From: a virus
Virus record (IMG/VR): IMGVR_UViG_3300042308_001511
Location: 186,001-250,000 of that record
Direction: 5' to 3' (one strand)
Length of the DNA: 64,000 nt
Every line of letters begins with the position of its first letter. Position 1 is the first letter of the stretch. Below, piece by piece: positions 9,814-58,093 of the stretch. The translations under genes were made by a program, and so were the position numbers. Under the pieces are notes generated by a model, which made no database searches, was not told the origin of the DNA, and saw only the letters and a program-made list of their open reading frames with translations.

Positions 9814-9842
9814 AATCCCACTTCTTAGGTGGGATTTTTTTT
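9814..9842 (+). terminator. hairpin terminator after the methyltransferase gene
   Basis: AATCCCAC (9814-9821) pairs perfectly with GTGGGATT (9829-9836), followed by a long T-run that runs into the next promoter. Confidence 0.85.
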
Positions 9843-9843
9843 G

Positions 9844-9851
9844 TATCTTAG
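9844..9851 (+). promoter_or_regulatory. promoter for an apparently leaderless operon
   Basis: TATCTTAG follows a T-run plus G, with exactly four bases before the ATG at 9856. The same spacing occurs at 11776 and 15191. If the start site lies about four bases after the element, the mRNA begins at or next to the ATG. Confidence 0.5.
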
Positions 9852-9855
9852 CGAT

Positions 9856-10275
9856 ATGGATAAACAAAGATTAGAAGAGATGATGCTTAGACTGCAGCTG
9901 GCAGTCAACGAAATCGCAAGAGGTGAAGGAGTAGAGATAAAACTATCTGAGCCAGAACACCTATTCTCGGGTGACAACAACACCTATAAAGTAAGCATGA
10001 CCATTGCAGACGTCGATCCTGTAAAACAGCGTGAGTATGAGGCGATGTGTAAGAAAGTAGGTTTCACACAAAACGTAATCGGTATGTCGTTCACAACTTC
10101 ACACGGATCACTTTACCGAATAGTCAACATAAAGACCAGAAACAGAAAATACCCGGTAATCGCCTCGTCCAGACTGGGTGGACTTTACAAATTCTCTGCG
10201 GAGACCGTTAAGAGACAACTCGGTGGCGACCAGCTTATAAACAGAAACGCTAACTTAGATAAACTAATACCATGA
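9856..10275 (+). CDS. first gene of the small-protein cluster, unidentified
   Basis: ATG at 9856 is preferred over an upstream in-frame GTG at 9829, which lies inside the terminator. The 139-residue product begins with a helical, acidic segment (MDKQRLEEMMLRLQLAVNEI) and has a C-terminal part resembling a small SH3-like or KTSC-type barrel (KYPVIASSRLGGLYKFS). Its TGA overlaps the ATG of the next gene. Unlike most genes after it, it lacks the C-terminal R-x-x-K-L-x-x-L-G-I tag. Confidence 0.7.
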   Translation: MDKQRLEEMMLRLQLAVNEIARGEGVEIKLSEPEHLFSGDNNTYKVSMTIADVDPVKQREYEAMCKKVGFTQNVIGMSFTTSHGSLYRIVNIKTRNRKYPVIASSRLGGLYKFSAETVKRQLGGDQLINRNANLDKLIP

Positions 10276-10715
10276 TAATAGCAATAGTAGTACTAGCGCT
10301 GACGACACTCATATTCGGAATTTACATCATACACCTCCACGCCAGACTGTCGGAGGTGATAGCGGACAAAAACAACGCAGAGACGCTCACAGCGACGTTG
10401 AAGAAAAGGACGACCGTCGAGGTATCACCAGGCGACACCGGCCTTATGCCCGGATACAACCTACAACACAACAGGAAGGATGGACCGTATGCGTTCCAGG
10501 TCGACTTCGAGGTCAGCATAATAGAACTATCCGAGAAACGTCTAAAGGTGAGTGCAATTGACTTCACATCCAACGACGCATGGGCGAAGGATCCCACCAA
10601 CAAGCCGGGTATAATAAAATTCTTCCAGAACCAGTGGGTGAACAGGAACGAAGTAGAAATCATCTACGACGATAGAAAACGCAGGAACGACAAACTAAAC
10701 GAATTAGGAATATGA
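10272..10715 (+). CDS. membrane-anchored small protein with C-terminal LGI tag
   Basis: Residues 2-22 (IIAIVVLALTTLIFGIYIIHL) form one transmembrane segment, followed by a charged helix and a soluble domain of about 100 residues containing VEVSPGDTGLMPGY. It ends in RKRRNDKLNELGI, the tag shared by about ten neighbours. The start and stop both overlap neighbours as ATGA. The DNA is markedly GC-richer than most of the window. The N-terminus predicts a bitopic membrane protein; nothing suggests an enzyme. Confidence 0.7.
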   Translation: MIIAIVVLALTTLIFGIYIIHLHARLSEVIADKNNAETLTATLKKRTTVEVSPGDTGLMPGYNLQHNRKDGPYAFQVDFEVSIIELSEKRLKVSAIDFTSNDAWAKDPTNKPGIIKFFQNQWVNRNEVEIIYDDRKRRNDKLNELGI

Positions 10716-11116
10716 TAACGTTCGAGGAGTTCGCACGCGACATCGGGATGCACCGCGAGGAGGCGATAAAGCGCGAGATACGTGAGATGAAGATAAACAT
10801 ACTCGAGGGTAAGTATATGTGCACCGACGCATACTCTATACCAAAGAATCCAATGATGTGGGAAATGTGTACCGAATGTGGACTGAGACCACTAATCTGG
10901 GAGTTCGACAACGGAAGGGCCACTGCGTGTGGTTGTGGAAAGGACACTTACGAACATCATTCGATACATGCAGAGAGTGTAAGGTCTGTTGTAGAAAGGT
11001 GTGGTGGATCTGCAATGGAATACGATTTAGATGCACTTAGGAATAACTGGAACCAATGGGTAAAAACTGGGAAAGGTGTTATGCACAAAGACCTGAGAGA
11101 CGAAGGAAAATGGTAA
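10712..11116 (+). CDS. zinc-ribbon protein resembling Lar-type restriction alleviation proteins
   Basis: The 134-residue protein has a helical N-terminus, then MCTECGLRPLIWEF (a C-x2-C-G knuckle), ACGCGKDTYEHHS (C-x-C) and a final LDALRNNWNQWV. A C-x2-C-G, C-x-C, then W-N near the end is the layout of Lar-type and related small zinc proteins found in phages, some of which modulate type I restriction. The match is by pattern only. It is translationally coupled to the gene before it and has no LGI tag. Confidence 0.55.
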   Translation: MITFEEFARDIGMHREEAIKREIREMKINILEGKYMCTDAYSIPKNPMMWEMCTECGLRPLIWEFDNGRATACGCGKDTYEHHSIHAESVRSVVERCGGSAMEYDLDALRNNWNQWVKTGKGVMHKDLRDEGKW

Positions 11117-11120
11117 TGGA

Positions 11121-11471
11121 ATGAAGACAGACGAATACATACGCGGTGAGATAACCAGACACCTCGACATCCACAAAATAACGTACCGAGAGGCTCAGAT
11201 TGCTGAGATGGTAGAGTCCGTGCTCGGTGGCACTGGTGCGTTCCAAATCATATTCGAACAGGTCTTCGATCCGTTCTGTGAGGACGGAGACGAAATATAC
11301 GTTCTCGAGAAATGTAGAGCACTCGACAGAAGCCTGATCCGTGAAACGACCACACAATTCGGTACTATGTACGCATATGACGGCAAGCGATACCAGTGGT
11401 CCGAAATGGAGACCATACTGATTGACCAGGTGGCATTAAGAGACATCAAGATCAACGAGCTCGGTCTGTAA
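11121..11471 (+). CDS. small unidentified protein with C-terminal LGI tag
   Basis: The 116-residue acidic protein has a region around FCEDGDEIYVLEKCRALDRS and ends in LIDQVALRDIKINELGL, a clear version of the tag. It starts four bases after the preceding stop. No domain is recognised. Its final codons (ATC AAC GAG CTC GGT CTG) differ from those of other tag genes, so the conservation is at protein level. Confidence 0.7.
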   Translation: MKTDEYIRGEITRHLDIHKITYREAQIAEMVESVLGGTGAFQIIFEQVFDPFCEDGDEIYVLEKCRALDRSLIRETTTQFGTMYAYDGKRYQWSEMETILIDQVALRDIKINELGL

Positions 11472-11519
11472 ACATCCTATACCTAGCTACATATAAAAGT
11501 AAACCAAAAACTTTTACAG

Positions 11520-11735
11520 ATGGCAATCAAAATCACTTGGACAGAGTCCAGCACAACTTACTACCACTACTCCGCCGAGATTACTGAAGAACAGGCAGAT
11601 CTATTCGAGACCGACGAGGCAAAGTTCTTCGACGAAGTAGACTTCCGAAACGATCCAGTTCTCGAATGGGAGGACGTCAAGGACCACGATGCTGAAGACT
11701 TCGAAATCGAAGAAGAAGACGAGGAAGACGAGTAA
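11520..11735 (+). CDS. 71-residue highly acidic protein
   Basis: The protein starts with a short beta-type segment (MAIKITWTESSTTYYHYSAE) and becomes increasingly acidic, ending in FEIEEEDEEDE. It lies between two tag-gene groups, 48 bases after the previous stop. The net charge suggests a binding partner with a basic surface, for example a DNA-mimic or inhibitor role, but that is speculation. It has no LGI tag. Confidence 0.6.
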   Translation: MAIKITWTESSTTYYHYSAEITEEQADLFETDEAKFFDEVDFRNDPVLEWEDVKDHDAEDFEIEEEDEEDE

Positions 11736-11775
11736 CAAAAAATTAGAAGAGGTCCAAAGTTTGTGCCTTTTTTCG

Positions 11776-11783
11776 TATATTAG
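11776..11783 (+). promoter_or_regulatory. promoter for an apparently leaderless operon
   Basis: TATATTAG, preceded by TTTTTTCG, stands exactly four bases before the ATG at 11788, the same geometry as at 9844. Confidence 0.55.
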
Positions 11784-11787
11784 CATT

Positions 11788-12002
11788 ATGTACGAATACC
11801 TAGAACACATAGATAATAACAGATTCAGATTTCGCTGGTCGATGAAGAACGCCAACTTCCTGTGCTGTCAATAGACGAGATTCGTTCTATGATGAAATAC
11901 TACGAGAACATAGAGGCCTACGAGGTCTGTACGTCTATTAATGCCTACATAACCACAATCGAAAGAGATAAAAAACTAGAAGAACTTGGAATAATCGACT
12001 AA
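11788..12002 (+). pseudogene. frameshifted small protein with C-terminal LGI tag
   Basis: ATG at 11788 opens MYEYLEHIDNNRFRF, but this frame stops at 11874. The -1 frame entered at 11832 continues SLVDEERQLPVLSIDE... and ends in ERDKKLEELGIID at 12002. Joining the two at the TTT of 11830-11832 gives a smooth 71-residue protein of the usual tag-family size. One extra T in that run would restore the frame, so a one-base deletion or sequencing error is likeliest; programmed frameshifting is possible but no classic slippery heptamer is present. Confidence 0.6.
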
Positions 12003-12004
12003 GT

Positions 12005-12517
12005 ATGAAAGTAAAAGAAATACTAATAACATTTTTCGGTGCAACCGCTGTACTTTTAGCAATCCTTTTCGGATTGTCCTACTTCGGCAACACTATGTCT
12101 GGCCACATCAACCTTATAATATCGATGTGTGTAGCCACCATAATCGTGGGTATAATGCAGAATGTCGTTCCAGGAATAAGAAAGGTCAAAGCAGAGAAGA
12201 AGGTCAGAACGTTCGTAGAAAATAACTGGCTACCTGGTTTCGAAAAGAAGCACTGGGTGATACGCAACCTCGAAATTATGAATAGAAGAAGCGATCTGTA
12301 CTACGTTATGTTAGACGTCGAGTATCTTCCTCTGGGCAAACGCCATAGTTTCAGTGCAGACGTTAGTTATTCCGATCCTAACTCACACATACACAAAAAC
12401 ATCTCTTACCACCTGAACCGCAAAGAGAAGGAGTGGGCCACTGCAGTGGGAACCGATATGGCAACAATCAGAAAGCAATGGAAAAGAGATAACAGACTAA
12501 ACGAACTAGTGATATGA
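12005..12517 (+). CDS. two-TM membrane protein with C-terminal LVI/LGI-type tag
   Basis: The 170-residue protein has two predicted transmembrane segments (about residues 5-27, ITFFGATAVLLAILFGLSYF, and 36-55, NLIISMCVATIIVGIM) joined by a short loop, then a soluble C-terminal domain. It ends in RKQWKRDNRLNELVI, the tag with Val in place of Gly. Its TGA overlaps the next ATG. Two different membrane proteins in the cluster (this and 10272) carry the tag on the side facing the soluble domain. Confidence 0.7.
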   Translation: MKVKEILITFFGATAVLLAILFGLSYFGNTMSGHINLIISMCVATIIVGIMQNVVPGIRKVKAEKKVRTFVENNWLPGFEKKHWVIRNLEIMNRRSDLYYVMLDVEYLPLGKRHSFSADVSYSDPNSHIHKNISYHLNRKEKEWATAVGTDMATIRKQWKRDNRLNELVI

Positions 12518-12729
12518 AAGTTATTTGCACACAGGAGACCTACAAACGACACAGAATGGACCTTACGTATGGCAAGGCATACGAAGTCGTCGATGAACAT
12601 CCATTACAAATCAATGACCAAATGTACAAAATAATCGACGACAGAGGAACTTTGGCCTGGTTTGACCGCGAGGTAGTAATACCCCTGGAAGAATGGAGAA
12701 ACAAACAACTAAAAGAACTCGGTATATGA
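12514..12729 (+). CDS. small beta-barrel-like protein with C-terminal LGI tag
   Basis: The 71-residue protein reads as a small SH3-like barrel: LTYGKAYEVV, QMYKIIDDRGTLAWFDREVV, then PLEEWRNKQLKELGI. The G-K-x-Y-x-V and D-D-x-G turns recur in the next gene and in the distant gene at 42375, which suggests these three share a fold as well as the tag. Both ends overlap neighbours by four bases (ATGA). Confidence 0.7.
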   Translation: MKVICTQETYKRHRMDLTYGKAYEVVDEHPLQINDQMYKIIDDRGTLAWFDREVVIPLEEWRNKQLKELGI

Positions 12730-12974
12730 TGACAATAATCGAAATGTACGGTAGTGAAAAAGTTGCCGGCTCTGGTTACAAGATAACACCAGGTAAGAAA
12801 TACCAGGTAACCGTGTTTCATCAACAGATTTCACCAGACGCCTATCTACAAGAAAAGTTTATATTCACCGACGACTCAGGTGCGAAAGACGAAATAAGCT
12901 ACCTCTGGATCGATAACTGTATGTGTAGTAAAGAAAAATGGAGAGAAACACAAATAAACAAACTCGGAATATGA
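12726..12974 (+). CDS. small beta-barrel-like protein with C-terminal LGI tag
   Basis: ATG at 12726 overlaps the previous stop (a second ATG follows at once). The 82-residue protein has ITPGKKYQVTVF and FIFTDDSGAKDEISYLWI, the same turn pattern as the gene before it, and ends in KEKWRETQINKLGI. It could be a paralogue of 12514 that has diverged strongly outside the turns and tag. No enzymatic residues are evident. Confidence 0.7.
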   Translation: MMTIIEMYGSEKVAGSGYKITPGKKYQVTVFHQQISPDAYLQEKFIFTDDSGAKDEISYLWIDNCMCSKEKWRETQINKLGI

Positions 12975-13249
12975 TACCAACAATAGGAACACACCTCATC
13001 CGAAGAAACGAAAAGCAATATCTAAATAGTAATGTGGTCGCTGATTGGAGTGGAAAATATATAAAAGGGAAAATAACAGCACTACGAAAATTCCACGAAC
13101 ATGGAGAACTGCACATAGTAATAGAATGGGAAGGTATAGGTCCAGTTCAGTACACCGAAGCGATGTTCTACGAATGTTTACATGAGGGTAAGATAAAGAT
13201 TGACAAACAACATTATAGAAACGAGAAATTTGATCAACTAGGTATATGA
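12971..13249 (+). CDS. small unidentified protein with C-terminal LGI tag
   Basis: ATG at 12971 overlaps the previous stop and gives 92 residues. The middle contains LHIVIEWEGIGPVQYTEAMF, probably beta-rich, and the end is HYRNEKFDQLGI with Phe in place of Leu in the tag. The order basic N-terminus, beta core, tag is like its neighbours. Function is unknown. Confidence 0.65.
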   Translation: MIPTIGTHLIRRNEKQYLNSNVVADWSGKYIKGKITALRKFHEHGELHIVIEWEGIGPVQYTEAMFYECLHEGKIKIDKQHYRNEKFDQLGI

Positions 13250-13524
13250 AATGGGGAAAAAAATGGAGAAACGGTGAGATGAGGACAATCACCAAGTTCG
13301 CATGGTTGCCGATAAGGATAGATAATAGATGGGAAGGCGCTGAATGGGTCTGGCTCGAGACCGTCAAGATCGAGCAGTGCTATCGAACGAATGTGGGTCT
13401 CAGTAGCACGATGGTGCAAGACTTCAAGGTCTGGTTATTCGGTGGTTACTGGCTCAACGAGAGGTTCGTGCCGAAGACTAAGGACGAGATCAGGAACGAC
13501 AAGCTAGACAAACTGGGAATATAG
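13246..13524 (+). CDS. small Trp-rich protein with C-terminal LGI tag
   Basis: The 92-residue protein is unusually rich in tryptophan (nine, for example KWGKKW, FAWLPI, WVWLET, FKVWLFGGYW) and ends in KDEIRNDKLDKLGI. It closes this operon and converges on the glutaminyl-tRNA synthetase gene, whose stop lies two bases away with no terminator between. Codon choice is GC-richer than in flanking AT-rich genes. Confidence 0.65.
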   Translation: MKWGKKWRNGEMRTITKFAWLPIRIDNRWEGAEWVWLETVKIEQCYRTNVGLSSTMVQDFKVWLFGGYWLNERFVPKTKDEIRNDKLDKLGI

Positions 13525-13525
13525 A

Positions 13526-15130
13526 CTATGCAGTCCAACCCTCTTTTAAACTAACGGTCTTGTTCAACGATCCGTCTTTATCCATAACATAGTAACCCTT
13601 TCTAACCATTTGAACCGGTGTTCCTGGAACACATTCCGTAACACATGGTTCGAATACCGCACTCATATTAACTTTCTTAGACTCCGAGTTCAAATAATAA
13701 AGTATATCACCTTCTTCTTTATCGGGAAATTGAGACGTGAAAAGTTTATCATACTCATTTGTCTTTACATTTATTCCGTGTTCTGTGGATACCCAGTGTA
13801 TTGTTCCTTTTACTTTCCTATCAACCTTCATTCCGGAACGAGTCATTGGATCATATTCACATAATATATGTGTTATATTACCCACATCATCCTTTACAAC
13901 CGAATTAGCTTTTATTATGTAAGCCCCCTTAAGTCTTACCTCACCACCTATCTTAAGTCTGTGAAACTTTCCACCCGCTTCTTCTTTGAAGTCTTCACGC
14001 TCTATATACAACTCACCTGAAAATGGAATCATCCTCTTACCAAATGATTCATCTTCTGGATTGTTTTCTACCTCAACATATTCAGTACCTCCTGACCAGT
14101 TCTCAATCACCAATTTCACCGGATCAAAAACACCCATCACTCTTTTAGCAGATTTGTTTAACTCAACCCTGAGACACTCCTCTAACAATGAATAAGAAAC
14201 TACTGACTCTCTTTTAGTAACCGAAATCTTTTCACAAAACTCTCTTATCGATGCTGGTGTGAAACCCCTTCTTCTCAATCCAGATATAGTAGGCATCCTT
14301 GGATCGTCCCAATCATCAACGTGACCTTCATCCACCAACCTTTTCAATTTTCTTTTAGACATAACCGTCCAGTCAATGTTTAGTCTAGCAAACTCTGTTT
14401 CTTCTGGAAGTGTACCCGATAAATCACAATTTTCAAGAACCCACATATAAAGAGGTCTATGTACCTCAAATTCAAGTGTACAAAGTGAATCTGTTATACC
14501 CTCAGTATAATCTGATAATGGATGTGCAAAATCATACATAGGGTATATTTTCCATTTGTCACCTGTTTTATGATGTGGTCTATCCACAATTCTGTATATC
14601 ACTGGATCCCTCAATATCATATTTGATGATGTCATATCGATATTAGCTCGTAGTGTCTTCGAACCCTCCGGGAATTCTCCATTCCTCATCCTGTTGAAAA
14701 GATCTAAGTTTTCTTCTCGACTTCTACTTTTATATGGTGAATCCTTTCCAGGTAATGTTGGTGTGCCCTTCATTTCTGCCATTTCTTCTGATGTGGAATC
14801 ATCTACATAAGCCAATCCTTTGTTTATCAAAGTCTGTGCACAACCATAAATGAAATCAAAGTAATCTGATGTACAAGCGATAACATTTGGTTCGTAACCA
14901 AGCCACCTAACATCTTCTGTTATAGAGTTTACATATTCCTCTTCCTCAGTACTCGGATTTGTATCATCGAATCGCAAATTGCATTTAGCACCATACTTCT
15001 CGGCCAATCCAAAATTTAGACAGATTGATTTTGCATGCCCTATATGTAAGTATCCGTTTGGTTCTGGTGGAAACCTAAGTGCCAAATTATCAATTCCTTT
15101 TTTCAATATCTTTTCCTCTATGAAGTTCAT
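13526..15130 (-). CDS. glnS: glutaminyl-tRNA synthetase
   Basis: This class I synthetase charges tRNA-Gln with glutamine. The 534-residue protein has the PPEPNGYLHIGHAKS signature (HIGH at 29-32), TLEFEVHRPLY in the active-site domain, and VMSKRKLKRLV as the KMSKS loop, followed by DDPRMPTISGLRRRGF and two C-terminal beta-barrel anticodon-binding domains. Length is close to bacterial GlnRS (about 550), so it looks complete and active. ATG at 15130 is preferred; 31 extra upstream codons are AT-rich and unlike the family. It splits the tag-protein cluster. No tRNA-Gln is seen in the window. Confidence 0.93.
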   Translation of the reverse strand: MNFIEEKILKKGIDNLALRFPPEPNGYLHIGHAKSICLNFGLAEKYGAKCNLRFDDTNPSTEEEEYVNSITEDVRWLGYEPNVIACTSDYFDFIYGCAQTLINKGLAYVDDSTSEEMAEMKGTPTLPGKDSPYKSRSREENLDLFNRMRNGEFPEGSKTLRANIDMTSSNMILRDPVIYRIVDRPHHKTGDKWKIYPMYDFAHPLSDYTEGITDSLCTLEFEVHRPLYMWVLENCDLSGTLPEETEFARLNIDWTVMSKRKLKRLVDEGHVDDWDDPRMPTISGLRRRGFTPASIREFCEKISVTKRESVVSYSLLEECLRVELNKSAKRVMGVFDPVKLVIENWSGGTEYVEVENNPEDESFGKRMIPFSGELYIEREDFKEEAGGKFHRLKIGGEVRLKGAYIIKANSVVKDDVGNITHILCEYDPMTRSGMKVDRKVKGTIHWVSTEHGINVKTNEYDKLFTSQFPDKEEGDILYYLNSESKKVNMSAVFEPCVTECVPGTPVQMVRKGYYVMDKDGSLNKTVSLKEGWTA

Positions 15131-15190
15131 TATTAGATTTTTTAATTTCTTTATTTTATATGAAAAAAATGAAAAGTTAAAATATTTTTG

Positions 15191-15198
15191 TATATTGG
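15191..15198 (+). promoter_or_regulatory. promoter at the head of the third small-protein operon
   Basis: TATATTGG, preceded by ATTTTTG, resembles the elements at 9844 and 11776. Four bases later comes ATA rather than ATG, at the first codon of a frame that encodes only the tag. Confidence 0.45.
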
Positions 15199-15202
15199 TA
15201 AG

Positions 15203-15256
15203 ATAGAGATTAGTGAGCAACACCGTGAGAAACTAAATCTACTCGGAATAATATAA
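15203..15256 (+). pseudogene. tag-only remnant of an LGI-tag gene
   Basis: The frame from 15203 encodes just IEISEQHREKLNLLGII and a TAA. It holds the full C-terminal tag without any domain before it. The position four bases after a promoter element suggests an original ATG that is now ATA, with most of the gene deleted. A functional 17-residue peptide started from ATA, ATT or TTG cannot be excluded. It ends six bases before the next gene. Confidence 0.45.
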
Positions 15257-15262
15257 AAAAGG

Positions 15263-15844
15263 ATGAAAGAGATTAGAGACATAAAGATTGATTTACTCAC
15301 TGGAAATAAAAATCCAATCGTAGAACTATTCAACGAAATCACAAAGGACACAATGATAATCAAATGTGATGTCTACCATAAACACGGAATAGAATTCATC
15401 TACCACAATGGTGGCGAGTGGATCTTCTACCAGGATTGCCAAAATGGCGAGTTCTGGTGCAACTACACGAGATATTGGTCGCTTTTCGAATCCAATCTGA
15501 AACTCGAATACCAGGAAATACAAGCGATAACAAAGTACCTGGTGGAAGAAGCACTCAAACGAGAGGTGAGCACACCTCGTGAGGCATTGGAGTCTTTCAA
15601 AGGAGTGGTGGAAGAAGCACTCAAACGAGAGGTGAGCACACCCATAATGAATAATGTAGTTCAGTACTTCGCGGTGGAAGAGGTGCTCAAACGAGAGGTG
15701 AGCACACCAAAATCTCATCTACATAATTCAGCAACGGTGGTGGAAAAAGCACTCAAACGAGAGGTAGGATCAGTTGAATTTGTTGTTTTCACCCCTCCAC
15801 CGGTGGAAGAGTCACTCAAAAGAGAGATAAACCAAACCGAATAA
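15263..15844 (+). CDS. repeat protein with five VEEALKREVSTP-type units
   Basis: Residues 1-~92 form a domain with DLLTGNKNPIVELFNEI and a Trp/Cys-rich stretch (GGEWIFYQDCQNGEFWCNY). From about residue 93 the protein is five units of V-E-E-A-L-K-R-E-V-S-T-P, each followed by about ten unrelated residues. The units are strongly conserved in DNA as well as protein. The conserved part looks like an amphipathic helix; the variable part may be the exposed, changing element. Units four and five are degenerate (KREVGS, KREINQ). No LGI tag is present. Function is unknown. Confidence 0.75.
   Translation: MKEIRDIKIDLLTGNKNPIVELFNEITKDTMIIKCDVYHKHGIEFIYHNGGEWIFYQDCQNGEFWCNYTRYWSLFESNLKLEYQEIQAITKYLVEEALKREVSTPREALESFKGVVEEALKREVSTPIMNNVVQYFAVEEVLKREVSTPKSHLHNSATVVEKALKREVGSVEFVVFTPPPVEESLKREINQTE
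15542..15830 (+). repeat. five coding direct repeats, 35 conserved plus ~31 variable bases
   Basis: Copies of GTGGAAGAAGCACTCAAACG and the following ~15 bases start at 15542, 15608, 15674, 15740 and 15803. Periods are 66, 66, 66 and 63 bases, all multiples of three. Between copies the sequence is unrelated. The first three copies are almost identical; the last is shorter. Confidence 0.9.
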
Positions 15845-15847
15845 CCA

Positions 15848-16108
15848 ATGGAACTCGACCACATAATACTCGAAAGGATCTGCCTACGAAAATACAACAT
15901 AGACGCAGACCAACCAGCACTCATAAACCTCAGAGACTGGCAAACCACAATACACGACGACACCTGGCATACCGAATGCTTCTTCTCGGTTGGATCAGGC
16001 CCAAGATGGTTCGGCCAAGATAGCCTGGTAGTATACCAAGATGAATACATACGAGAACTTACCACCATACGAAGAGAAGAGAAACTTAATCAACTCGGCA
16101 TCAAATGA
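15848..16108 (+). CDS. small unidentified protein with C-terminal LGI tag
   Basis: The 86-residue protein has an acidic N-terminus (MELDHIILERICLRKYNIDA), a Trp-containing middle (WHTECFFSVGSGPRWFG) and ends in TTIRREEKLNQLGIK, the tag plus one extra Lys. It begins three bases after the repeat-protein stop and its TGA overlaps the next ATG. No family is recognised. Confidence 0.65.
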   Translation: MELDHIILERICLRKYNIDADQPALINLRDWQTTIHDDTWHTECFFSVGSGPRWFGQDSLVVYQDEYIRELTTIRREEKLNQLGIK

Positions 16109-16356
16109 TAAACAAAGACATCGCGGTAGAGATAGCACACAACGAATACCACAAGAAGTACAACGACACAGAGGGAACCGTTCTCTCTACTATGTATGTC
16201 AATCAAATGGTTGATGTTGATTACGTCGTAGTAAGTCTACTAGCTCGTAAAGAAGGCGACGACCTGAAAGTCTTCACAATAGACATACCGATGTGGTACT
16301 ACAACGCAGAAGTCCAAAATAAAAGAGATTGCAAAATAGACGAGATATTGGAATGA
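16105..16356 (+). CDS. small protein with a degenerate C-terminal tag
   Basis: The 83-residue protein contains a beta-rich core (VDVDYVVVSLLARKEGDDLK) and ends in NKRDCKIDEILE, which keeps R-x-x-K-I-x-x-I/L but has lost the Gly-Ile end. It overlaps both neighbours as ATGA. It may be a divergent tag-family member, which would help show which tag residues matter. Confidence 0.65.
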   Translation: MINKDIAVEIAHNEYHKKYNDTEGTVLSTMYVNQMVDVDYVVVSLLARKEGDDLKVFTIDIPMWYYNAEVQNKRDCKIDEILE

Positions 16357-16595
16357 CCAAAGACCAAGAGAAAATCATAAGAGATTGGTTTGAAACCATA
16401 AAGAAAAACCTTCCCGCAGGTGCCGAGATATCCAGCATCAGAGAACACCGGGACGGAAAAACAACCATCGTCTACGAATACGGAAAACACGAGAACACAT
16501 ACAGAGACGGAAAGAGACACGGTCAAATAGAAGTCACCAAAGACCACATAACACAAATAAACCGAGAAAACAAACTAAGAGAACTGGGACTCTAA
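16353..16595 (+). CDS. small protein with C-terminal LGL tag
   Basis: ATG at 16353 overlaps the previous stop (an in-frame ATG at 16329 would overlap it by 28 bases). The 80-residue product has a helical N-terminus (DQEKIIRDWFETIKKNLP), two strands around HRDGKTTIVYEYGKH and ends in QINRENKLRELGL. Its 3' end overlaps the convergent GC-rich gene by four bases. Confidence 0.65.
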   Translation: MTKDQEKIIRDWFETIKKNLPAGAEISSIREHRDGKTTIVYEYGKHENTYRDGKRHGQIEVTKDHITQINRENKLRELGL

Positions 16596-17281
16596 TCCTC
16601 ATCCGTGCGTATCCACCTGACGTCCTGCCTCACCTCCAAATGAACGCCCGGGAACTCTTCCGCGACCCTGTCTTTCACAGCCTGGGCGACCTCGTCAGGT
16701 ATCCTTTCCTGGAAGGCGTTTATCGAGTCGCTTCGCATGTGGAACGTCACCAAATACCCGATGCCGTAACTTGAGAAATTCGTCTTCAACCTATTCATGT
16801 TCCTCCTGAAGTCGCGGACCCAGTCGTCTTGAGTACTGCCCTCCTCCATCACACACATAAACACCGTCGGTAGTGAGGCGTGACTGGAAAAGTAACTTTT
16901 ACCTGCTCTGTGATTCCAGACCGCTGCCTGTATCCTGACCTGGTAGCCACTGTCGGTGAGGTCCTCCGCGACAAGCACATCCGACAGGTAGTCGATGAGA
17001 GACATATCGACCCGGCCTGCGAAGTACTCCTCGGCCGAGACCATCGCCGCGTCGACCCTCGCCCGGTCCTCCGCGCTCATCTCCTGCCTGAACGACCAGT
17101 CGGTATCGTCCCAATGACATTCATCCTCCCAACTAACCGAACCATCCGCCAACAATGGCCAAAGATTACCCGTCTCGGTTCCTAACGCAGAACCAACACT
17201 ATCCAAATTAACAATCGGCTCATCCGGAACACCATCCGCTTGTCCCTCTAAGAAGACCTTATACACTTTTAACTTTCTCAT
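16592..17281 (-). CDS. unidentified protein encoded by unusually GC-rich DNA
   Basis: The 229-residue protein is acidic and Trp/Asp-rich (WEDECHWDDTDWSFRQEM). The base composition is striking: bases 16981-17040 count to about 60% G+C, whereas flanking intergenic DNA is near 20%. Only the first ~55 codons (17115-17281) approach the surrounding composition. That suggests a recently acquired gene, or a join of two sources within it. A segment ending VNLDSVGSALGTETGNLWPL looks structured. No family is recognised. Confidence 0.65.
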   Translation of the reverse strand: MRKLKVYKVFLEGQADGVPDEPIVNLDSVGSALGTETGNLWPLLADGSVSWEDECHWDDTDWSFRQEMSAEDRARVDAAMVSAEEYFAGRVDMSLIDYLSDVLVAEDLTDSGYQVRIQAAVWNHRAGKSYFSSHASLPTVFMCVMEEGSTQDDWVRDFRRNMNRLKTNFSSYGIGYLVTFHMRSDSINAFQERIPDEVAQAVKDRVAEEFPGVHLEVRQDVRWIRTDED

Positions 17282-18333: not shown

Positions 18334-18341
18334 TATATTTG
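18334..18341 (+). promoter_or_regulatory. promoter of the gene at 18357
   Basis: TATATTTG immediately follows the terminator T-run; the ATG is 15 bases downstream. A TTG lies 15 bases upstream, closer than usual. Confidence 0.6.
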
Positions 18342-18356
18342 TCTAAAATAAAAGAT

Positions 18357-19217
18357 ATGGCAGACTATAGTAGAGATAAATTGTTCGAACAACTGGATCA
18401 GTTGAAAATTTACAAATCGGGTGAAAGTGTAATCACTGAGTTTAGAGGTCGTGTTATAAACAACACTGATGTATCGTCTAAATATGAAATTTTTGACATT
18501 GTTAAGTATTTCAAAGAAAGAATTGATGAGATTGAAAAGTCTTTCAAAATTGATAAATACTTTCTTACAATCAAAGGTGGTAAACAAACACTCGACCTTG
18601 TATCTGAGGAGGTTGAAGTTGCTGGAAAGAAATTTCAAAAGACTTTCCATATGCAAAACTCAACCGATAGATCGCGTAGATTAGGTTTCAATACTGGTCT
18701 CTATAACGTAGAGGATAAATATGTTGTGATTAGTGCGGTAAATCAGGTTTCTTTGTATAAGGCACACATTAAGGGTGTAACACAGGCGGCAGAGGAAGCC
18801 AGTAAGGGTATCTCTGGTGAGACGTTTGATGATCAAATCAGTGCATTGAACGATTTGGTTGGTCATAGAGTCGCTTTCTCAAAAATACGAGGTGTTATAC
18901 TGGGTGATGATGAGAAAGTACCACAGATTGCACATAAACGTTTCGATAATTTCGTAGCTTCTCTGAAATCTGCTAGTCGTTCAGGAATAACAAAGGAGGA
19001 CTACACAAAGTATAATATACCGAGACAAAGATCAGAGTATGTGAAGGAGATAAAGTTTGACGAAGACTTCTTCATTGACGGATTCGACACAATAATGTGT
19101 TATTTGAGAGCATTTGGTGGGCAGGAGACACACATCATCAAAAATGAGTCTGAGCGAATTATGAAAATTACCCAATGGTCGGTTAGGAATGATATGTTAG
19201 CGATGCTTGGAATATAA
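18357..19217 (+). CDS. unidentified phage protein, 286 residues
   Basis: ATG at 18357 is chosen because an upstream in-frame TTG lies inside the promoter. The protein begins ADYSRDKLFEQLDQL, has a helical segment around DIVKYFKERIDEIEKSF, and a middle region FHMQNSTDRSRRLGFNTGLY. It ends in MLAMLGI by chance or design, without the R-x-x-K-L context of the tag family. It is the first gene before a RecB-type nuclease and an Skp-like protein. No known domain is recognised; a DNA-metabolism role is only suggested by context. Confidence 0.7.
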   Translation: MADYSRDKLFEQLDQLKIYKSGESVITEFRGRVINNTDVSSKYEIFDIVKYFKERIDEIEKSFKIDKYFLTIKGGKQTLDLVSEEVEVAGKKFQKTFHMQNSTDRSRRLGFNTGLYNVEDKYVVISAVNQVSLYKAHIKGVTQAAEEASKGISGETFDDQISALNDLVGHRVAFSKIRGVILGDDEKVPQIAHKRFDNFVASLKSASRSGITKEDYTKYNIPRQRSEYVKEIKFDEDFFIDGFDTIMCYLRAFGGQETHIIKNESERIMKITQWSVRNDMLAMLGI

Positions 19218-23068: not shown

Positions 23069-23725
23069 TTATATATTAATCTTCTCGAGCTTGAAAAGAC
23101 CTAACATCGTAGGGCTGTTCTCTGGTAAGTCCAATTCTGTCTTTAACATATCGACCAGTGACCATCTTAGCTCACTGATGTAATATTCGAGGTCACTGTA
23201 CCATATCCCGTCCGGTCCTTTTCCGTAGTCTATGTTGAGACTGATGTGGAAAAGTGGCCTTATGGTTTGTGTATTAAGCAGTTTTTCGTTATGTGTTGAT
23301 GCACGTACGGAATCAACCTTTACCGAATCCACGAGTTCTATCTCGTTTACTAGCTCTTTGGTGAAATCTTTTTCCGCGTCCTCTGACTCATCTACCCGAT
23401 TGATTAAACTGCTATGTGCCTTCTGGATCCATTTGTCGATTGTTTGTATTAATGTTCTTTTGTCGTAGATTACCAAAGTTAGTCTCCTATCAATACGGTA
23501 ATTTGTAAAGACCGACATATTGCAGTCACCAAGCCTCTGTTCTAGTACTCCTATTGCGTCTAGTAGCTCTTGGTCGTTTGTCTCTTCTGGTATTAGTGTC
23601 ATGTAGAATTTGACACCGTCCATCTCAACGTGTTTGTATTCACCTTCCAGGTTCAGTTCCTCGAAGAATGCAGTGGTTATCATATCAGAGTCGTTGAACT
23701 CCTCAAACAGTTTTATCCATTTCAT
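23069..23725 (-). CDS. virion-type protein with capsid-targeting-like N-terminus
   Basis: The 218-residue protein starts MKWIKLFEEFNDSD, the clearest example of the shared aromatic N-terminal motif. The rest is acidic with a strand-rich region (YKHVEMDGVKFYMTLIPEE) and a C-terminal half containing LFHISLNIDYGKGPDG. It is first in the three-gene minus operon. No catalytic motif is seen. A packaged or core-associated protein is the best guess. Confidence 0.7.
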   Translation of the reverse strand: MKWIKLFEEFNDSDMITTAFFEELNLEGEYKHVEMDGVKFYMTLIPEETNDQELLDAIGVLEQRLGDCNMSVFTNYRIDRRLTLVIYDKRTLIQTIDKWIQKAHSSLINRVDESEDAEKDFTKELVNEIELVDSVKVDSVRASTHNEKLLNTQTIRPLFHISLNIDYGKGPDGIWYSDLEYYISELRWSLVDMLKTELDLPENSPTMLGLFKLEKINI

Positions 23726-23765: not shown

Positions 23766-24239
23766 ATGTCAGAATATTTAGAAAAAGTCGCCGAGTTTCA
23801 CAAAACATTTGGTGCGCCTATACTCGCTACACCTCAAATACCATCTGAGGAAAGATGTAAATTGAGAGTTAACCTTCTACAGGAAGAGTTGAACGAGTTA
23901 TCCGATGCTATAAAGGCAGGTGATATCGTAGAGATTGCAGATGCACTCGCAGATTTGCAATATGTTCTATCAGGTGCAGTTTTAGAGTTTGGTTTGAAAG
24001 ATAGGTTTGATCCACTTTTCGATGAAGTACAAAGATCAAATATGAGTAAAGCATGTTCTACTCAACAAGAGGCAATAGAGACTCTTTTACACTATAAACA
24101 AAAGGATGGTACGGAAGGAACATATCAACAAATTGGTGATGTTTATGTTGTGAATAGGAACGGAGACAACAAAGTATTAAAGTCTGTGGCCTATTCACCT
24201 GCAAATCTAAAACCAATAATTTATGAAGAGTCCGTATAG
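23766..24239 (+). CDS. MazG-like NTP pyrophosphohydrolase
   Basis: The 157-residue protein has the all-alpha NTP pyrophosphatase signature: LLQEELNELSDAIKAGDIVE (E-E-L-x-E) followed by EIADALADLQYV (E-x-x-D-x-x-x-D). The family (MazG/PRA-PH-like, close to COG4696) hydrolyses NTPs or modified nucleotides to monophosphates, or trims ppGpp in some phages. It begins a plus-strand operon with two tiny proteins, a HAD phosphatase and FolD, a nucleotide and one-carbon context. The exact substrate is unknown. Confidence 0.8.
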   Translation: MSEYLEKVAEFHKTFGAPILATPQIPSEERCKLRVNLLQEELNELSDAIKAGDIVEIADALADLQYVLSGAVLEFGLKDRFDPLFDEVQRSNMSKACSTQQEAIETLLHYKQKDGTEGTYQQIGDVYVVNRNGDNKVLKSVAYSPANLKPIIYEESV

Positions 24240-24558
24240 TAAAGCCTTACTAGAAAAATTAATGTTGATATACGGTGAAAAAGTAATTAATTTATATACG
24301 GTAAAGATTGATAAAATGGTATCTGAATTAGAGTCGGGATTCGTAGGACCATACATTTATAAAATTGAATGGGGTGGTGGTAAACCTGTTGAAATAAAGC
24401 CTATATTCTGTGACGAATTCATAAAATCCGGTATGGACACTTGGGTCGCACTTAGAGAAGGTAAGTACATATCTTCACATTCTTTTCACCAGTTCATAGA
24501 TTGTAGATCTGAAATACACCGTGAAAGACAACTGAACGAATTACTCGAGAATGAATAA
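24223..24558 (+). CDS. small protein with a distant tag-like C-terminus
   Basis: The 111-residue protein overlaps the MazG-like gene by 17 bases. It contains VGPYIYKIEWGGGKPVEIKP and ends in SEIHRERQLNELLENE, which keeps R-x-x-x-L-x-x-L but not the final Gly-Ile. It may be a divergent relative of the tag family at 10-16.6 kb. Its 3' end overlaps the next gene by eight bases. Confidence 0.65.
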   Translation: MKSPYSKALLEKLMLIYGEKVINLYTVKIDKMVSELESGFVGPYIYKIEWGGGKPVEIKPIFCDEFIKSGMDTWVALREGKYISSHSFHQFIDCRSEIHRERQLNELLENE

Positions 24559-24808
24559 GAATTCTTATTACGACATACTGATGACGGAGGTAACGGTTAG
24601 TGTTGCCTACCGTGTATTCGGTCTGGAAAGATTCGATGAAGGACAGAGAGTTTTTCTACATAGTCATCCCAGGATTACAAGATGGTTCTGCTTCGATCGT
24701 GATTATATTTTATACACACCTAGTGAATATGAACGTATGAAATACTTCATTGATGAGACAGAGTGGAGAGATGAAAGAATAGATACAATACTAAAAAAGA
24801 AAGAATGA
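24551..24808 (+). CDS. small protein with a distant tag-like C-terminus
   Basis: The 85-residue protein has an aromatic middle part (ITRWFCFDRDYILYTPSEYE) and ends in EWRDERIDTILKKKE, similar to the W-R-x-x-x-(L/I)-x-x-(L/I) part of the tag but without Leu-Gly-Ile. It starts inside the end of the previous gene, so the two are co-translated. No family is recognised. Confidence 0.6.
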   Translation: MNKNSYYDILMTEVTVSVAYRVFGLERFDEGQRVFLHSHPRITRWFCFDRDYILYTPSEYERMKYFIDETEWRDERIDTILKKKE

Positions 24809-39221: not shown

Positions 39222-40907
39222 ATGAAGAGAAAGATTAAATCTGCACTTATTTCAGTTTGGGATAAAGAGGGTCTTGATACGGTTGTGAGCAAATTGAATG
39301 AATTGGGAATTCAGATAATATCAACTGGAGGTACATACGAATACATAAAAAATCTGGACATACCAGTTTTATCGGTGGAAGAATTAACAGGTCAACCTGA
39401 AATTATGGGTGGTAGAGTTAAGACTTTACATCCTAAGATATTTGGTGGTATACTATATCAGAGGTCTTCTAAATCTGATAAAAAGGATCTTTCTACTAAC
39501 AATATGAAAGGTATAGACCTAGTTATTGTTGATTTATATCCTTTTGAACAAACAATCGCCAATATGGAGAATGAGGGATTGACTGATGATGATGCTATTG
39601 AGAAGATAGATATCGGTGGTGTTTCGCTTATAAGGGCAGCTGCAAAAAACCATAAAGATGTTTTGGTTATTGGTCATAAAGATCAATATAGCCTACTTAT
39701 GCAGGTTCTTGATAATGGTGGAAGTACTGAGTTTGAAGAGAGAAGAGAGTTTGCAATTGATGCATTCAACATAACTTCAAATTACGATGCTGATGTATTT
39801 AAATATCTTTTGGGTGATTCTGCGGAAGACCTTTCTGGCCTCACTGGTTACTTACCGACACAAGAAGATGGTCTTAGATTTTCGTCAGATGATAATAATC
39901 TAAATGACTTCCTTATTTGTTGGAAAAGGTTTGGATCTAGGCCTAACAGGATATTGATTGAGAATGCATATTCTTCAAAACTTGTTGGTGATGCAATTTC
40001 TGACATAATAAAGGAGAAGAATGTTTTCACTGAGGTTATACCTGATGGTGAAAGTCTGATAATAAATGATAGAGTTTTTGTTAGACTTGAGGATGAACTT
40101 TATTTATCTTATGTTGTAATTGATAGAAATAGTGAGAGTTCTTTCATAGATTCTATGCTCTTTTTGTACAAAGAAGGTTTTGATGGAGTACAAGACTACG
40201 TTGATTTGTTGAACGAGTGTCTTATAGACTTTCAAGAAGACACTGGTAATAAAATAAACGCGATGGTTTTGTCACCTTCTGGTCTTGAGATTGAGACTGT
40301 TGGAATAACTGATTATGATTCTGAGAATATAGAGACATACTATTCTGGTAAAACATTCAAAGCTATGGAAAAGGCAGTGAAGCGTATAAAAGGTTCGAAA
40401 AGAGGAATGACAATTCTTTATGGGCCTAGAGGTACTGGAAAAACAACCTCTATAAATTACATAGCAGATGGTCTTGATCGTATTGTCATATTCATTCCAA
40501 ACAATATGATAGAACATACTATAAATAATCCTGATTTTAGGAAATTTCTAAAGAGATTTGATCAACCTATAATAGTAATAGATGATTGTGAGTTGGCATT
40601 GAACGAGATATACAACAAATCTAACGTTACAACGACCAATCTTGTTCAGATGGTTGATGGTTTCTTGGCAGGTACTACTGATGTTAGTATTGTTGCGATA
40701 TTCAATACTGATAGTGAGGATGATATAGATCACAACCTTTTAGATTGTAATAGTTTGTTGGATGTTGTTGAGTTTACAGAACTTTCGACGGCTGAGTGTA
40801 ATGACCTTTCTAAAATTGTAGATGGTCGAAAGTATAAATCCTCTGCAAAAATGATTGACGTAGTTAAGAAAAGAAAGGGTGAGCAAAAAGAGAAAGTGGG
40901 GTTTTAA
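39222..40907 (+). CDS. fusion of IMP cyclohydrolase (PurH N-terminal domain) with an AAA+ ATPase
   Basis: Residues 1-~197 are a complete IMP cyclohydrolase domain of PurH: ALISVWDKEGL, STGGTYEYI, MGGRVKTLHPKIFGGILYQR (R65, K67, T68), VIVDLYPFEQT (Y106), IEKIDIGG (D130) and IRAAAKNHKDV (K142). These match catalytic positions of PurH/ATIC. The AICAR transformylase half is absent. Residues ~215-380 are unassigned. Residues ~380-540 are an AAA+ ATPase with Walker A LYGPRGTGKTTS (401-409), Walker B IIVIDDCE (D454, D455, E457) and sensor-1 VAIFNTDS (N495). One uninterrupted frame encodes all 561 residues. The combined role is unknown. Confidence 0.85.
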   Translation: MKRKIKSALISVWDKEGLDTVVSKLNELGIQIISTGGTYEYIKNLDIPVLSVEELTGQPEIMGGRVKTLHPKIFGGILYQRSSKSDKKDLSTNNMKGIDLVIVDLYPFEQTIANMENEGLTDDDAIEKIDIGGVSLIRAAAKNHKDVLVIGHKDQYSLLMQVLDNGGSTEFEERREFAIDAFNITSNYDADVFKYLLGDSAEDLSGLTGYLPTQEDGLRFSSDDNNLNDFLICWKRFGSRPNRILIENAYSSKLVGDAISDIIKEKNVFTEVIPDGESLIINDRVFVRLEDELYLSYVVIDRNSESSFIDSMLFLYKEGFDGVQDYVDLLNECLIDFQEDTGNKINAMVLSPSGLEIETVGITDYDSENIETYYSGKTFKAMEKAVKRIKGSKRGMTILYGPRGTGKTTSINYIADGLDRIVIFIPNNMIEHTINNPDFRKFLKRFDQPIIVIDDCELALNEIYNKSNVTTTNLVQMVDGFLAGTTDVSIVAIFNTDSEDDIDHNLLDCNSLLDVVEFTELSTAECNDLSKIVDGRKYKSSAKMIDVVKKRKGEQKEKVGF

Positions 40908-42374: not shown

Positions 42375-42650
42375 ATGAAACCGGATATTGGATCCGTTTA
42401 TGTGTGTGTTAATAGTGACACAAATGGGCGATTAGGTCCAAAGGGTCTTAAAGTTGGTGAATTATTTTTAATAAATCGTGTCATTGAGATGTACGATGTA
42501 GATAATTACGATGATGGATATAGATATGCTATCTTTATAAATAATATAGATTCTAAATCTGAATCTATATTCTACATAAAAGATTTTTTAAGGTGTTTCG
42601 TATCTATAGAGGATTGGAGAGAATCTCGATTAAAAGGATTAGAATTGTAG
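42375..42650 (+). CDS. small beta-barrel-like protein, distant relative of the LGI-tag family
   Basis: The 91-residue protein has GLKVGELFLINRVIEMYDVD and YAIFINNIDSKSESIFYIKD, the same order of turns as the tag proteins at 12514 and 12726, and ends in SIEDWRESRLKGLEL. The tag is present except for Gly-Ile, which reads Glu-Leu. It lies 26 kb from the main cluster. Its 3' end overlaps the convergent 1722-residue gene by 12 bases. Confidence 0.65.
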   Translation: MKPDIGSVYVCVNSDTNGRLGPKGLKVGELFLINRVIEMYDVDNYDDGYRYAIFINNIDSKSESIFYIKDFLRCFVSIEDWRESRLKGLEL

Positions 42651-47857: not shown

Positions 47858-49231
47858 TTATTGTTCTGACCTTTTGGATACAATCTGGTTAAAGTTGTCT
47901 GCTAGATTGAATTTATATTTCGCACCTAATTTGCCGGACATTTCACCACCTGTAAACTTTATGGATACTAGAAGATCCATCAATTTTTCCTCTTCGATTT
48001 CTATTACTATCTTCATCGGAAAATCATTCATATCCTCATCCTCACTGACTTCAAATTTTACGTGGTAGTCAAATTTTAGTTCCATATCATCGTAGTTATT
48101 TCTGAAGAATGACCTAGCAGGAACCAAACTTAGTATACTTCCGTTATTATTGAGATACCAAACAGATCTTTCGGTACAACCGAGTTTCTCTACTGCCGCT
48201 TTGAAGAGTTTCATCTTTACAGTTCCTCCTGCAATTTTTAGGTTGTTGTCTTCTGTCAATTGTATATCTTCTGGGAACTCAGTCTTTATAGATGATGTGA
48301 ATATATTCTCGAGTATTTTACTATTGAGTAGAACTATTTTTGTCTCTGTCCATTCTTTTTTTACCCTTTCAGGATCCATAAAACACTCATCAATATTTTT
48401 CCATATCTCACTCATAAGGTCTGATAGCTTCAATATATTTTTGTCGAATTGTGGTATTAGTTCACCTAAATGTTTAAAATTTGGATCACCGTGTTTCACA
48501 TCAAAATACTCGAAATAGCCAATTGTTTCTATCCTTTCAGGTTGTATAAACTTCTCGATATGTCTTTGTATATCTTTGTTGGCATTTTCGTAGATTGTCT
48601 TAACCCATTCCTGTGTTAACTTGTTCCAGTGTTTCATATATGCTTCTGAAAAAAGCTTCTCGGTATTTTCTCCTATTAGCTCGTCAGCGAACGAGTTGAA
48701 ACTAGCACTTTTCTGTGTAGACAAACTTTTATTTAGAACAATAGACATTTGTCTATCATCATTCAACTCTATAACTAAGTCTTCGCTGTGTTCTTTGTCT
48801 TTGTTAGGACCGAGCCAATATACCTTTCTTATTATCTCCGGTGTCATTTTTTCTGTAGGTAATATCTTATCGATTATAGCTCTTGCACATACACGTGCAT
48901 TTGATAATTTGTCCCAGTCTTTTTCGATACTAAAATCAGTATTCTCGAATATACCACTGGTTTTTCCAATTTCGTTATCATCTACACATCTTTCACCTTC
49001 AAACTTCCCCAAACATAATCTATTTTTAGCAATAAGTAGGTTTTTAAGATCCGTTAAGAATATTCCTGAGTCTTCGGAATACCTCGCTTTTAGACCTCGG
49101 TCCAGTATATTATCCAGGAACTCGTTGTTTAGTAATACCATTGCGGTACATATTTCACTTACGAGATTCTTTCCGTTATACTCGTTAGATTTGGATTCTT
49201 TGAATAGTTTGTAGTTTCTTAACCACCTCAT
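47858..49231 (-). CDS. virion-type protein with capsid-targeting-like N-terminus
   Basis: The 457-residue protein starts MRWLRNYKLFKESKSN, matching the shared aromatic N-terminal motif. The remainder is a large soluble alpha/beta protein with IGYFEYFDVKHGDPNFKHL and VKMKLFKAAVEKLG. A KDKEHSEDLVIELNDDRQMS segment looks like the start of a domain with D and E residues in register, but I cannot assign a nuclease. It is divergent from the gene at 49278, which has the same type of start. Confidence 0.7.
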   Translation of the reverse strand: MRWLRNYKLFKESKSNEYNGKNLVSEICTAMVLLNNEFLDNILDRGLKARYSEDSGIFLTDLKNLLIAKNRLCLGKFEGERCVDDNEIGKTSGIFENTDFSIEKDWDKLSNARVCARAIIDKILPTEKMTPEIIRKVYWLGPNKDKEHSEDLVIELNDDRQMSIVLNKSLSTQKSASFNSFADELIGENTEKLFSEAYMKHWNKLTQEWVKTIYENANKDIQRHIEKFIQPERIETIGYFEYFDVKHGDPNFKHLGELIPQFDKNILKLSDLMSEIWKNIDECFMDPERVKKEWTETKIVLLNSKILENIFTSSIKTEFPEDIQLTEDNNLKIAGGTVKMKLFKAAVEKLGCTERSVWYLNNNGSILSLVPARSFFRNNYDDMELKFDYHVKFEVSEDEDMNDFPMKIVIEIEEEKLMDLLVSIKFTGGEMSGKLGAKYKFNLADNFNQIVSKRSEQ

Positions 49232-57343: not shown

Positions 57344-58093
57344 TTACTTTTTGAGAACTTCTTTTGTGTAATAGTCCTCAAACCCATCCATCAATGATTT
57401 GACATCGTAGGTCTTCTCATTCGTAATCACCTCATCAATGAAACCGAATTCTAATGCTTCATACGCACTCAACCATTTGTCACGACGTGCAGCATCAAGA
57501 ACATATTGAAAATCTCTTCCACTATTCTCAGCAAGCATTTTGAACAAGATGTAGTTGTACTTCTCAGACTCCATTTGAGAGATTCTGTTGTCCGCAACAT
57601 GACCTTGTGCGCCAGAACTAACTTGGTGTATCATAACCCTCGAGAAGTTTAAAGATGAACGTTTACCCTTTGTTCCAGAAGATAAAAGAATAGAACCCAT
57701 AGATGCGGCCAATCCTACATTGATTGTCTCAATATCTGAGTTAACATACCTCATAAGATCGACAATACCTAAACCGTGAAGTACTGATCCACCTGGTGAA
57801 TTAATGTGCATTTTGATATCTTGCTTCGCAATTGAGTCAAGATACATAATTTGTGCTTGTAAAACGTCACACATTTGTTGGTTGACAACACCAGATACCC
57901 AAAGAATTCTATCACGCATCAAACGTGAGAAGATATCCATCTGTGTTACCCTCATTTCTCTCTCCTCTAAAATGTACGGAGTTAGACTTGCTTCCGGAAC
58001 TGAGTTCTCTAAATTCTTCTCGAAGTAGTGCATGTTCAATGAGCTTACGCCTTTGTCTAATGCGTACTTTTTAAAATCCTTACTGTAATCCAT
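57344..58093 (-). CDS. ClpP-type serine protease
   Basis: The 249-residue protein has the ClpP fold and all three catalytic residues: Ser in VGLAASMGSI (S131), His in SRVMIHQVSSG (H156) and Asp in RRDKWLSAYEALEFGFIDEV (D205). MHINSPGGSVLHGLGIVD forms the substrate strand. It is ~45 residues longer at the N-terminus than host ClpP, which may replace the pro-peptide. ClpP usually forms a 14-mer that degrades unfolded proteins delivered by ClpX or ClpA; phage ClpP-like proteases also serve as prohead proteases. Confidence 0.88.
   Translation of the reverse strand: MDYSKDFKKYALDKGVSSLNMHYFEKNLENSVPEASLTPYILEEREMRVTQMDIFSRLMRDRILWVSGVVNQQMCDVLQAQIMYLDSIAKQDIKMHINSPGGSVLHGLGIVDLMRYVNSDIETINVGLAASMGSILLSSGTKGKRSSLNFSRVMIHQVSSGAQGHVADNRISQMESEKYNYILFKMLAENSGRDFQYVLDAARRDKWLSAYEALEFGFIDEVITNEKTYDVKSLMDGFEDYYTKEVLKK

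Follow-up and report, generated by a model that had tools for sequence, protein, structure and literature searches.

Why do small and otherwise different phage proteins end in the same short peptide? The question is raised by a window of 64,000 nucleotides (positions 186,001 to 250,000 of IMG/VR virus record IMGVR_UViG_3300042308_001511), which belongs to a 344-kb giant-phage record, here called G000. A first-pass annotation of the window, made from its letters alone, described a C-terminal tag, R-x-x-K-L-x-x-L-G-I, on ten named genes. The tag is real and more widespread than that annotation saw, although the L-G-I ending proves to be merely one dialect of a wider core that consists, in the logo, of Arg at position 1, Ile or Leu at positions 5 and 8, and Gly, Leu or Ile at position 9. 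Its presence on mostly unrelated proteins suggests a shared address label. The annotation had connected it with no described system, and searches of the open-licence literature turned up no report of such a tag.

Within the window, the tag was recovered at all ten genes (10272, 11121, 11862 in place of 11788, 12005, 12514, 12726, 12971, 13246, 15848 and 16353), the weaker forms noted at 16105, 24223, 24551 and 42375 are all present, and two additional genes, at 9829 and 18339, end in the tag pattern. The fragment at 15203, also counted as a carrier, does have a tag-like end, but its Arg sits one residue out of register (by eye), and it therefore has the appearance of a decayed copy. The tag-like end of gene 18339-19217 is retained in orthologues (RNNVLESLGI, RNSVLEALGI). 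The endings are as follows.

10243..10272, plus strand: tag-like end RNANLDKLIP of gene 9829-10275, absent from the first-pass list
10683..10712, plus strand: tag RNDKLNELGI of gene 10272-10715, encoding one transmembrane helix and a beta domain; AlphaFold terminal helix 134-146
11439..11468, plus strand: tag RDIKINELGL of gene 11121-11471
11964..11999, plus strand: tag RDKKLEELGIID in the 3′ part of the frameshifted gene 11788/11862-12002, intact from 11862
12485..12514, plus strand: tag RDNRLNELVI of gene 12005-12517, encoding two transmembrane helices, C-terminus predicted cytosolic
12697..12726, plus strand: tag RNKQLKELGI of gene 12514-12729, SH3-like barrel; AlphaFold helix 58-68 over most of the tag
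12942..12971, plus strand: tag RETQINKLGI of gene 12726-12974
13217..13246, plus strand: tag RNEKFDQLGI of gene 12971-13249
13492..13521, plus strand: tag RNDKLDKLGI of gene 13246-13524, Trp-rich
15215..15256, plus strand: EQHREKLNLLGII and a stop codon, decayed tag in the gene fragment near 15203, read by eye
16073..16105, plus strand: tag REEKLNQLGIK of gene 15848-16108
16324..16353, plus strand: weaker tag RDCKIDEILE, of the IL form, of gene 16105-16356
16563..16592, plus strand: tag RENKLRELGL of gene 16353-16595
19185..19214, plus strand: tag-like end RNDMLAMLGI of gene 18339-19217
24520..24555, plus strand: weaker tag RERQLNELLENE of gene 24223-24558
24767..24805, plus strand: weaker tag RDERIDTILKKKE of gene 24551-24808
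42618..42647, plus strand: weak tag RESRLKGLEL of gene 42375-42650

Anchoring at the C-terminus across a phage group

Gene calls followed a simple longest-frame rule, and a 12-column profile of the last 12 residues was seeded with the window and the L002/L003 tails and refined on the called genes. Of 567 genes of G000, 60 matched the profile at the very C-terminus and 76 no more than 5 residues from it, against an expectation from internal positions of about 0.02, which is optimistic because training used part of the same genes and genomes. A plain pattern, R-x-x-x-[IL]-x-x-[IL]-[GLI] followed by 0-7 further residues up to the C-terminus, was picked after the profile had been seen, with variants carrying Lys, Glu or Ser in place of the Arg as controls. 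It gave 86 C-terminal matches among 520 genes of G000, where the rate at internal positions in those proteins predicts 1.3, and the control variants gave little or no excess. Chance is excluded as the origin of these matches.

The giant-phage group of the window record includes LR756502, LR745206 and LR756504; the LR records used here are, as we take them, genomes of Al-Shayeb et al. LR756502 and LR745206 have been placed together (PMC9723777), and the group probably infects Bacteroidota. All 12 sampled group records show an excess of C-terminal matches (12-93 observed versus 0.2-2.2 expected), including G009 (93 of 669 genes), G007 (75 of 929), LR756502 (73 of 218, from two 50-kb stretches), LR756504 (31 of 276) and LR745206 (43 of 213). 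Pooled, the 12 records hold 565 matches among 4445 called genes, or about 1 in 8, a count in which the LR stretches are sampled non-randomly and a few genes are possibly counted twice; the densest stretches reach about 1 in 3, and the tagged share of sampled genes runs from about 7 to 33%. Among outgroup records, sampled in part, the pattern is found in 0 of 346 genes of LR756501 (735 kb), has no match in LR756500, Lak-A1, T4, KVP40, pT24 or MaF61, and has one in Vibrio 2.275.O against 0.5 expected, which is chance level. Searched with a model of the LGI-type tag (18 columns), eight Bacteroidota genomes (29 Mb) yielded a single weak match.

The eight-residue core is matched most often at the C-terminus itself (distance 0 in 219 of 3507 genes), and matches fall to background level beyond about 6 residues. 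In a de novo triplet search, Arg-based patterns ranked top in every covered group genome except G007, an exception caused by a dominant paralogous family. The 12-column profile overlooked the G007 form of the tag, which the plain pattern picked up. Tag carriers are mostly 60-150 residues long.

A strong C-terminal E..DG pattern in G007 was considered as a second tag and rejected, since its members are alike at both termini and constitute a large family. At about 33-155 kb of that genome (L110-L116), some 80 genes share their N-terminus (MKNLISKEEKDRID...) and their C-terminus (...QRHFEIWNDDLSLN...LLDEINDGLE), forming a very large paralogous family.

Peptide-level constraint and unrelated carriers

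The first-pass annotation had argued from freely varying codons that selection acts on the peptide, and this is borne out: codons for Arg, Lys, Leu, Ile and Gly within the tag roughly track genome usage in G000 and G009, with a modest bias to CTA, GGA and ATA for which overlap with the following start codon could partly account. Over 105 orthologue pairs with both members tagged, identity is 58% in the tag core against 45% in the body, and the Arg is kept in all, a comparison that favours the tag because both members had to be tagged (random tagged pairs reach 40%). When the best homologue of a tagged body in another genome is taken, it carries the tag in 238 cases and lacks it in 101, and many of these 101 have near-miss forms.

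The tag is also spoken in lineage dialects. Their commonest residues are R-[EDN]-x-[KR]-[LI]-x-E-[LI]-G-I in G000, R-D-x-K-[LI]-N-K-[IL]-[LGI] in G009 and G005, R-x-x-K-I-[DE]-E-[IL]-L-K in G006, R-N-x-K-L-K-K-I-L in G008 and R-x-x-T-I-N-[DE]-I-L-K in G007; LR756504 has, by eye, R-K-x-x-I-x-[DE]-[LI]-[LI]. Such dialects are a natural means of testing whether the tag co-evolves with whatever reads it.

As the annotation had observed for the N-terminal parts, the bodies preceding the tag are mostly unrelated, and include acyl-carrier-like, DUF1660, DUF2158, SH3-like and membrane proteins. Single-sequence phmmer comparison sorts 243 tagged proteins into 171 body clusters (the 76 from G000 into 62), an upper bound given that remote homology escapes such a search. 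In the recognised bodies (acyl-carrier-like, two DUF1660 and one DUF2158), the tag lies outside the matched domain in each. Pfam and PHROGs searches yielded no function for ten tagged proteins of the window, and a tblastn search with a 22-residue N-terminal piece yielded no match. The 80 tagged proteins of G000 gave one Pfam match (DUF7448) and few PHROGs matches, mostly to families of unknown function and some acyl-carrier-like.

The largest cluster comprises 22 SH3-like proteins that end in the tag helix, and the signature of this family occurs in only 7 of 85 G000 carriers. The AlphaFold model of one member, protein 12514, shows a barrel and then a helix that covers most of the tag; the PDB entries that match it best, SH3 domains, do so at E ~0.03, for which reason the fold name is held with moderate confidence. 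A Vibrio giant phage encodes a homologue of the SH3-like body that differs at the C-terminus. The model of protein 10272 has a transmembrane helix, a beta-rich domain and, at lower confidence, a terminal helix over the tag. Under a simple and crude charge rule, transmembrane proteins are predicted C-in rather than C-out in a ratio of 19:1 when tagged versus 103:47 when untagged (p = 0.015). Structure and topology prediction thus support a helical form of the tag and its position on the cytosolic side.

A proposed shared reader and the competing explanations

The tag most probably serves as a C-terminal docking helix, encoded in the genes themselves and handled by one shared cytosolic, probably phage-encoded partner. 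It would form an amphipathic helix of about 10 residues in which the Arg is near-fixed, positions 5 and 8 are hydrophobic and position 9 is Gly or Leu/Ile; the Arg and the two hydrophobic residues, lying on one helix face, would dock unrelated proteins, whether cytosolic or membrane-tethered, onto a single partner. The many unrelated and mostly small carriers would then converge on one cytosolic partner able to handle all of them; that a single reader serves all tagged proteins is inferred. The lineage dialects and the near absence of the tag from eight host-like genomes suggest that this reader is most likely phage-encoded and co-evolves with the tag. A broader proposal has roughly even prospects: tens to probably hundreds of unrelated proteins per genome would bear a private, proteome-wide label in the form of a dialect-specific C-terminal helix, and a phage-encoded machine, possibly a ClpC/ClpP-like protease, would read the label and control protein fate during infection.

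One candidate component of such a machine is encoded in the window.

57344..58093, minus strand: ClpP-family peptidase (PF00574), putative part of the reader

Its candidate partner, a ClpC-like ATPase, lies outside the window (G000:93802-95922); it combines two AAA modules with a UVR motif, and the matches listed for it include no Clp N-domain. A ClpP-family peptidase and a Clp ATPase occur together in the tag-positive G000, G006, G007, G009, LR756502, LR745206 and LR756504; in tag-positive G005 (281 kb), the ATPase was seen and ClpP was not. Among tag-negative records, LR756501 has a Clp ATPase without ClpP, and LR756500 has ClpP without that ATPase. In G006 (120909-122102, L091), the Clp ATPase frame opens with a foreign-looking stretch ending ...YYTNGLLSHN, followed by the D2 part; this stretch is reminiscent of an intein's C-terminal end.

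Several observations weigh against a docking helix with a single reader. Tag-negative Lak-A1 and Vibrio 2.275.O encode both ClpP and a Clp ATPase, so that the Clp pair is a suggestive and not a unique correlate of the tag. A shared-core comparison, which yielded 66 families, gave no unique candidate reader, a result limited by the fact that it covered LR756501 only in part. Some larger conserved proteins also carry the motif, and residues may trail after it, with a variable last residue (I, K, N or E), unlike a degron with a fixed free C-terminus. In the SH3-like family, the tag helix may pack against its own barrel. To these are added the upper-bound nature of the cluster count and the crudeness of the topology rule.

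As to what the partner does, a Clp-type degron is about as likely as a non-degradative hub, each being a tentative proposal. As a degron, the tag would send its carriers to the phage ClpC-like/ClpP protease, or to a host protease via a phage adaptor, and accessory proteins would be cleared at a stage of infection. The large tag-positive records encode ClpP and the ClpC-like ATPase, whose substrate choice may be rewired, given that no Clp N-domain is among its listed matches; the tag is, moreover, C-terminal and commonest on small proteins. This possibility is weakened by the Clp pairs of tag-negative phages, by the predicted helicity of the tag and its tolerance of trailing residues, and by the larger conserved carriers. 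The ssrA tag added by transfer-messenger RNA (tmRNA) and C-terminal Clp degrons such as that of MuA are likewise short C-terminal peptides on unrelated proteins read by one cytosolic machine. The present tag differs in being gene-encoded in each carrier rather than added by tmRNA, in being predicted helical, and in having a fixed Arg about 10 residues from the end with trailing residues tolerated; ssrA ends in AA or LAA, whereas the ends seen here are GI, LK, IN, E and others. The UVR motif of UvrB/UvrC and the ClpC middle domain is similar as a helix with L-R-D followed by spaced hydrophobic residues, but its hydrophobic spacing is off by one (by eye) and it is not a C-terminal tag; PF02151 (UVR) gave no match among the tagged proteins of A2 or A3 at E 0.001.

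A hub, in which the tag would hold its carriers on a scaffold, complex or chaperone of the phage and would not lead to their degradation, is favoured by the single fixed Arg in a helical docking geometry and by membrane proteins with predicted cytosolic tags among the carriers. DnaJ-like and Hsp70-like genes, recognised by eye, belong to the shared core, but they are matched also in tag-negative LR756501, and no hub was found. A precedent for many proteins docking on one hub through a short motif is the sliding-clamp binding motif (QxxLxLF type), from which the tag differs in that its logo has neither the Gln nor the aromatic pair, and has instead the fixed Arg and helix spacing. Short terminal peptides also route many unrelated proteins in the case of peroxisomal PTS1, encapsulin cargo peptides and T4 capsid-targeting sequences. 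These differ in sequence, length and setting, the present carriers including membrane proteins and having no known compartment, and the T4-type sequence is N-terminal rather than C-terminal. The type IX secretion C-terminal domain of Bacteroidota, although also a C-terminal signal on unrelated proteins, is about 70-80 residues long and found on exported proteins, whereas the tag has about 10 residues and is predicted to face the cytosol, with tagged transmembrane proteins mostly C-in.

It is unlikely that the tag is a generic helix-ending sequence that stabilizes small proteins and has no specific reader. L-G-I does resemble a Schellman helix cap, but a generic cap accounts poorly for a near-fixed Arg and for lineage dialects, or for an ending that is missing from other phages and nearly so from host-like genomes.

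Simple paralogy, in which all carriers stem from one small fold by duplication and divergence and the tag is its last helix, is improbable enough to be excluded as the explanation of the tag. The 22 SH3-like proteins ending in the tag helix would fit it; most bodies, however, have no mutual match, their known domains differ, and the SH3-like signature is rare among G000 carriers. The first-pass annotation had named one full-length fold common to all carriers as the finding that would overturn its claim; what emerged was a tag demonstrably beyond the matched domain in three cases.

Least probable of all is a DNA or RNA element (an overlapping start, ribosome-binding site, terminator or repeat) translated by accident as RxxKLxxLGI, for although tagged genes often end in TGA, able to overlap the next ATG, and show the mild GGA, ATA and CTA bias, a DNA-level origin is contradicted by the freely varying codons, such overlap is missing at 11121, 13246, 16353 and 18339, and the dialects swap residues yet keep the helix spacing.

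Giant-phage genes are mostly small and of unknown function, and a label on so large a share of the sampled genes would provide a handle on much of this dark proteome at once; with one likely reader, a single peptide could fish that reader out. If the reader is a phage protease, the tag would belong to a gene-encoded phage degron system comparable in scope to ssrA; a hub would bring to light a previously unknown organizing centre of infection.

Neighbouring features

A second shared tag, M-[KR]-x-[IL]-K-x-[YF]-x-x-[FY] (for example, MKWIKLFEEF), is N-terminal and opens 18 G000 proteins of more than 80 amino acids, with 2 internal matches. Its carriers in the window are 16592-17281, 23069-23725, 47858-49231, 49278-49928 and 51269-51817, and it is possibly a virion-related leader peptide.

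Between the C-terminally tagged genes, a GlnRS gene on the opposite strand (13526-15223) adjoins the decayed tagged fragment and encodes a protein with 54-58% identity to Bacteroidota enzymes. Further along, at 15540-15837, a 37-nt repeat occurs five times at spacings of 66, 66, 66 and 63 nt, degenerating toward one end; these repeats form a CRISPR-like mini-array inside the open reading frame 15263-15844. Elsewhere in the window (39222-40907), MGS-like and AICAR-transformylase-like stretches are fused to an AAA ATPase domain in a single protein.

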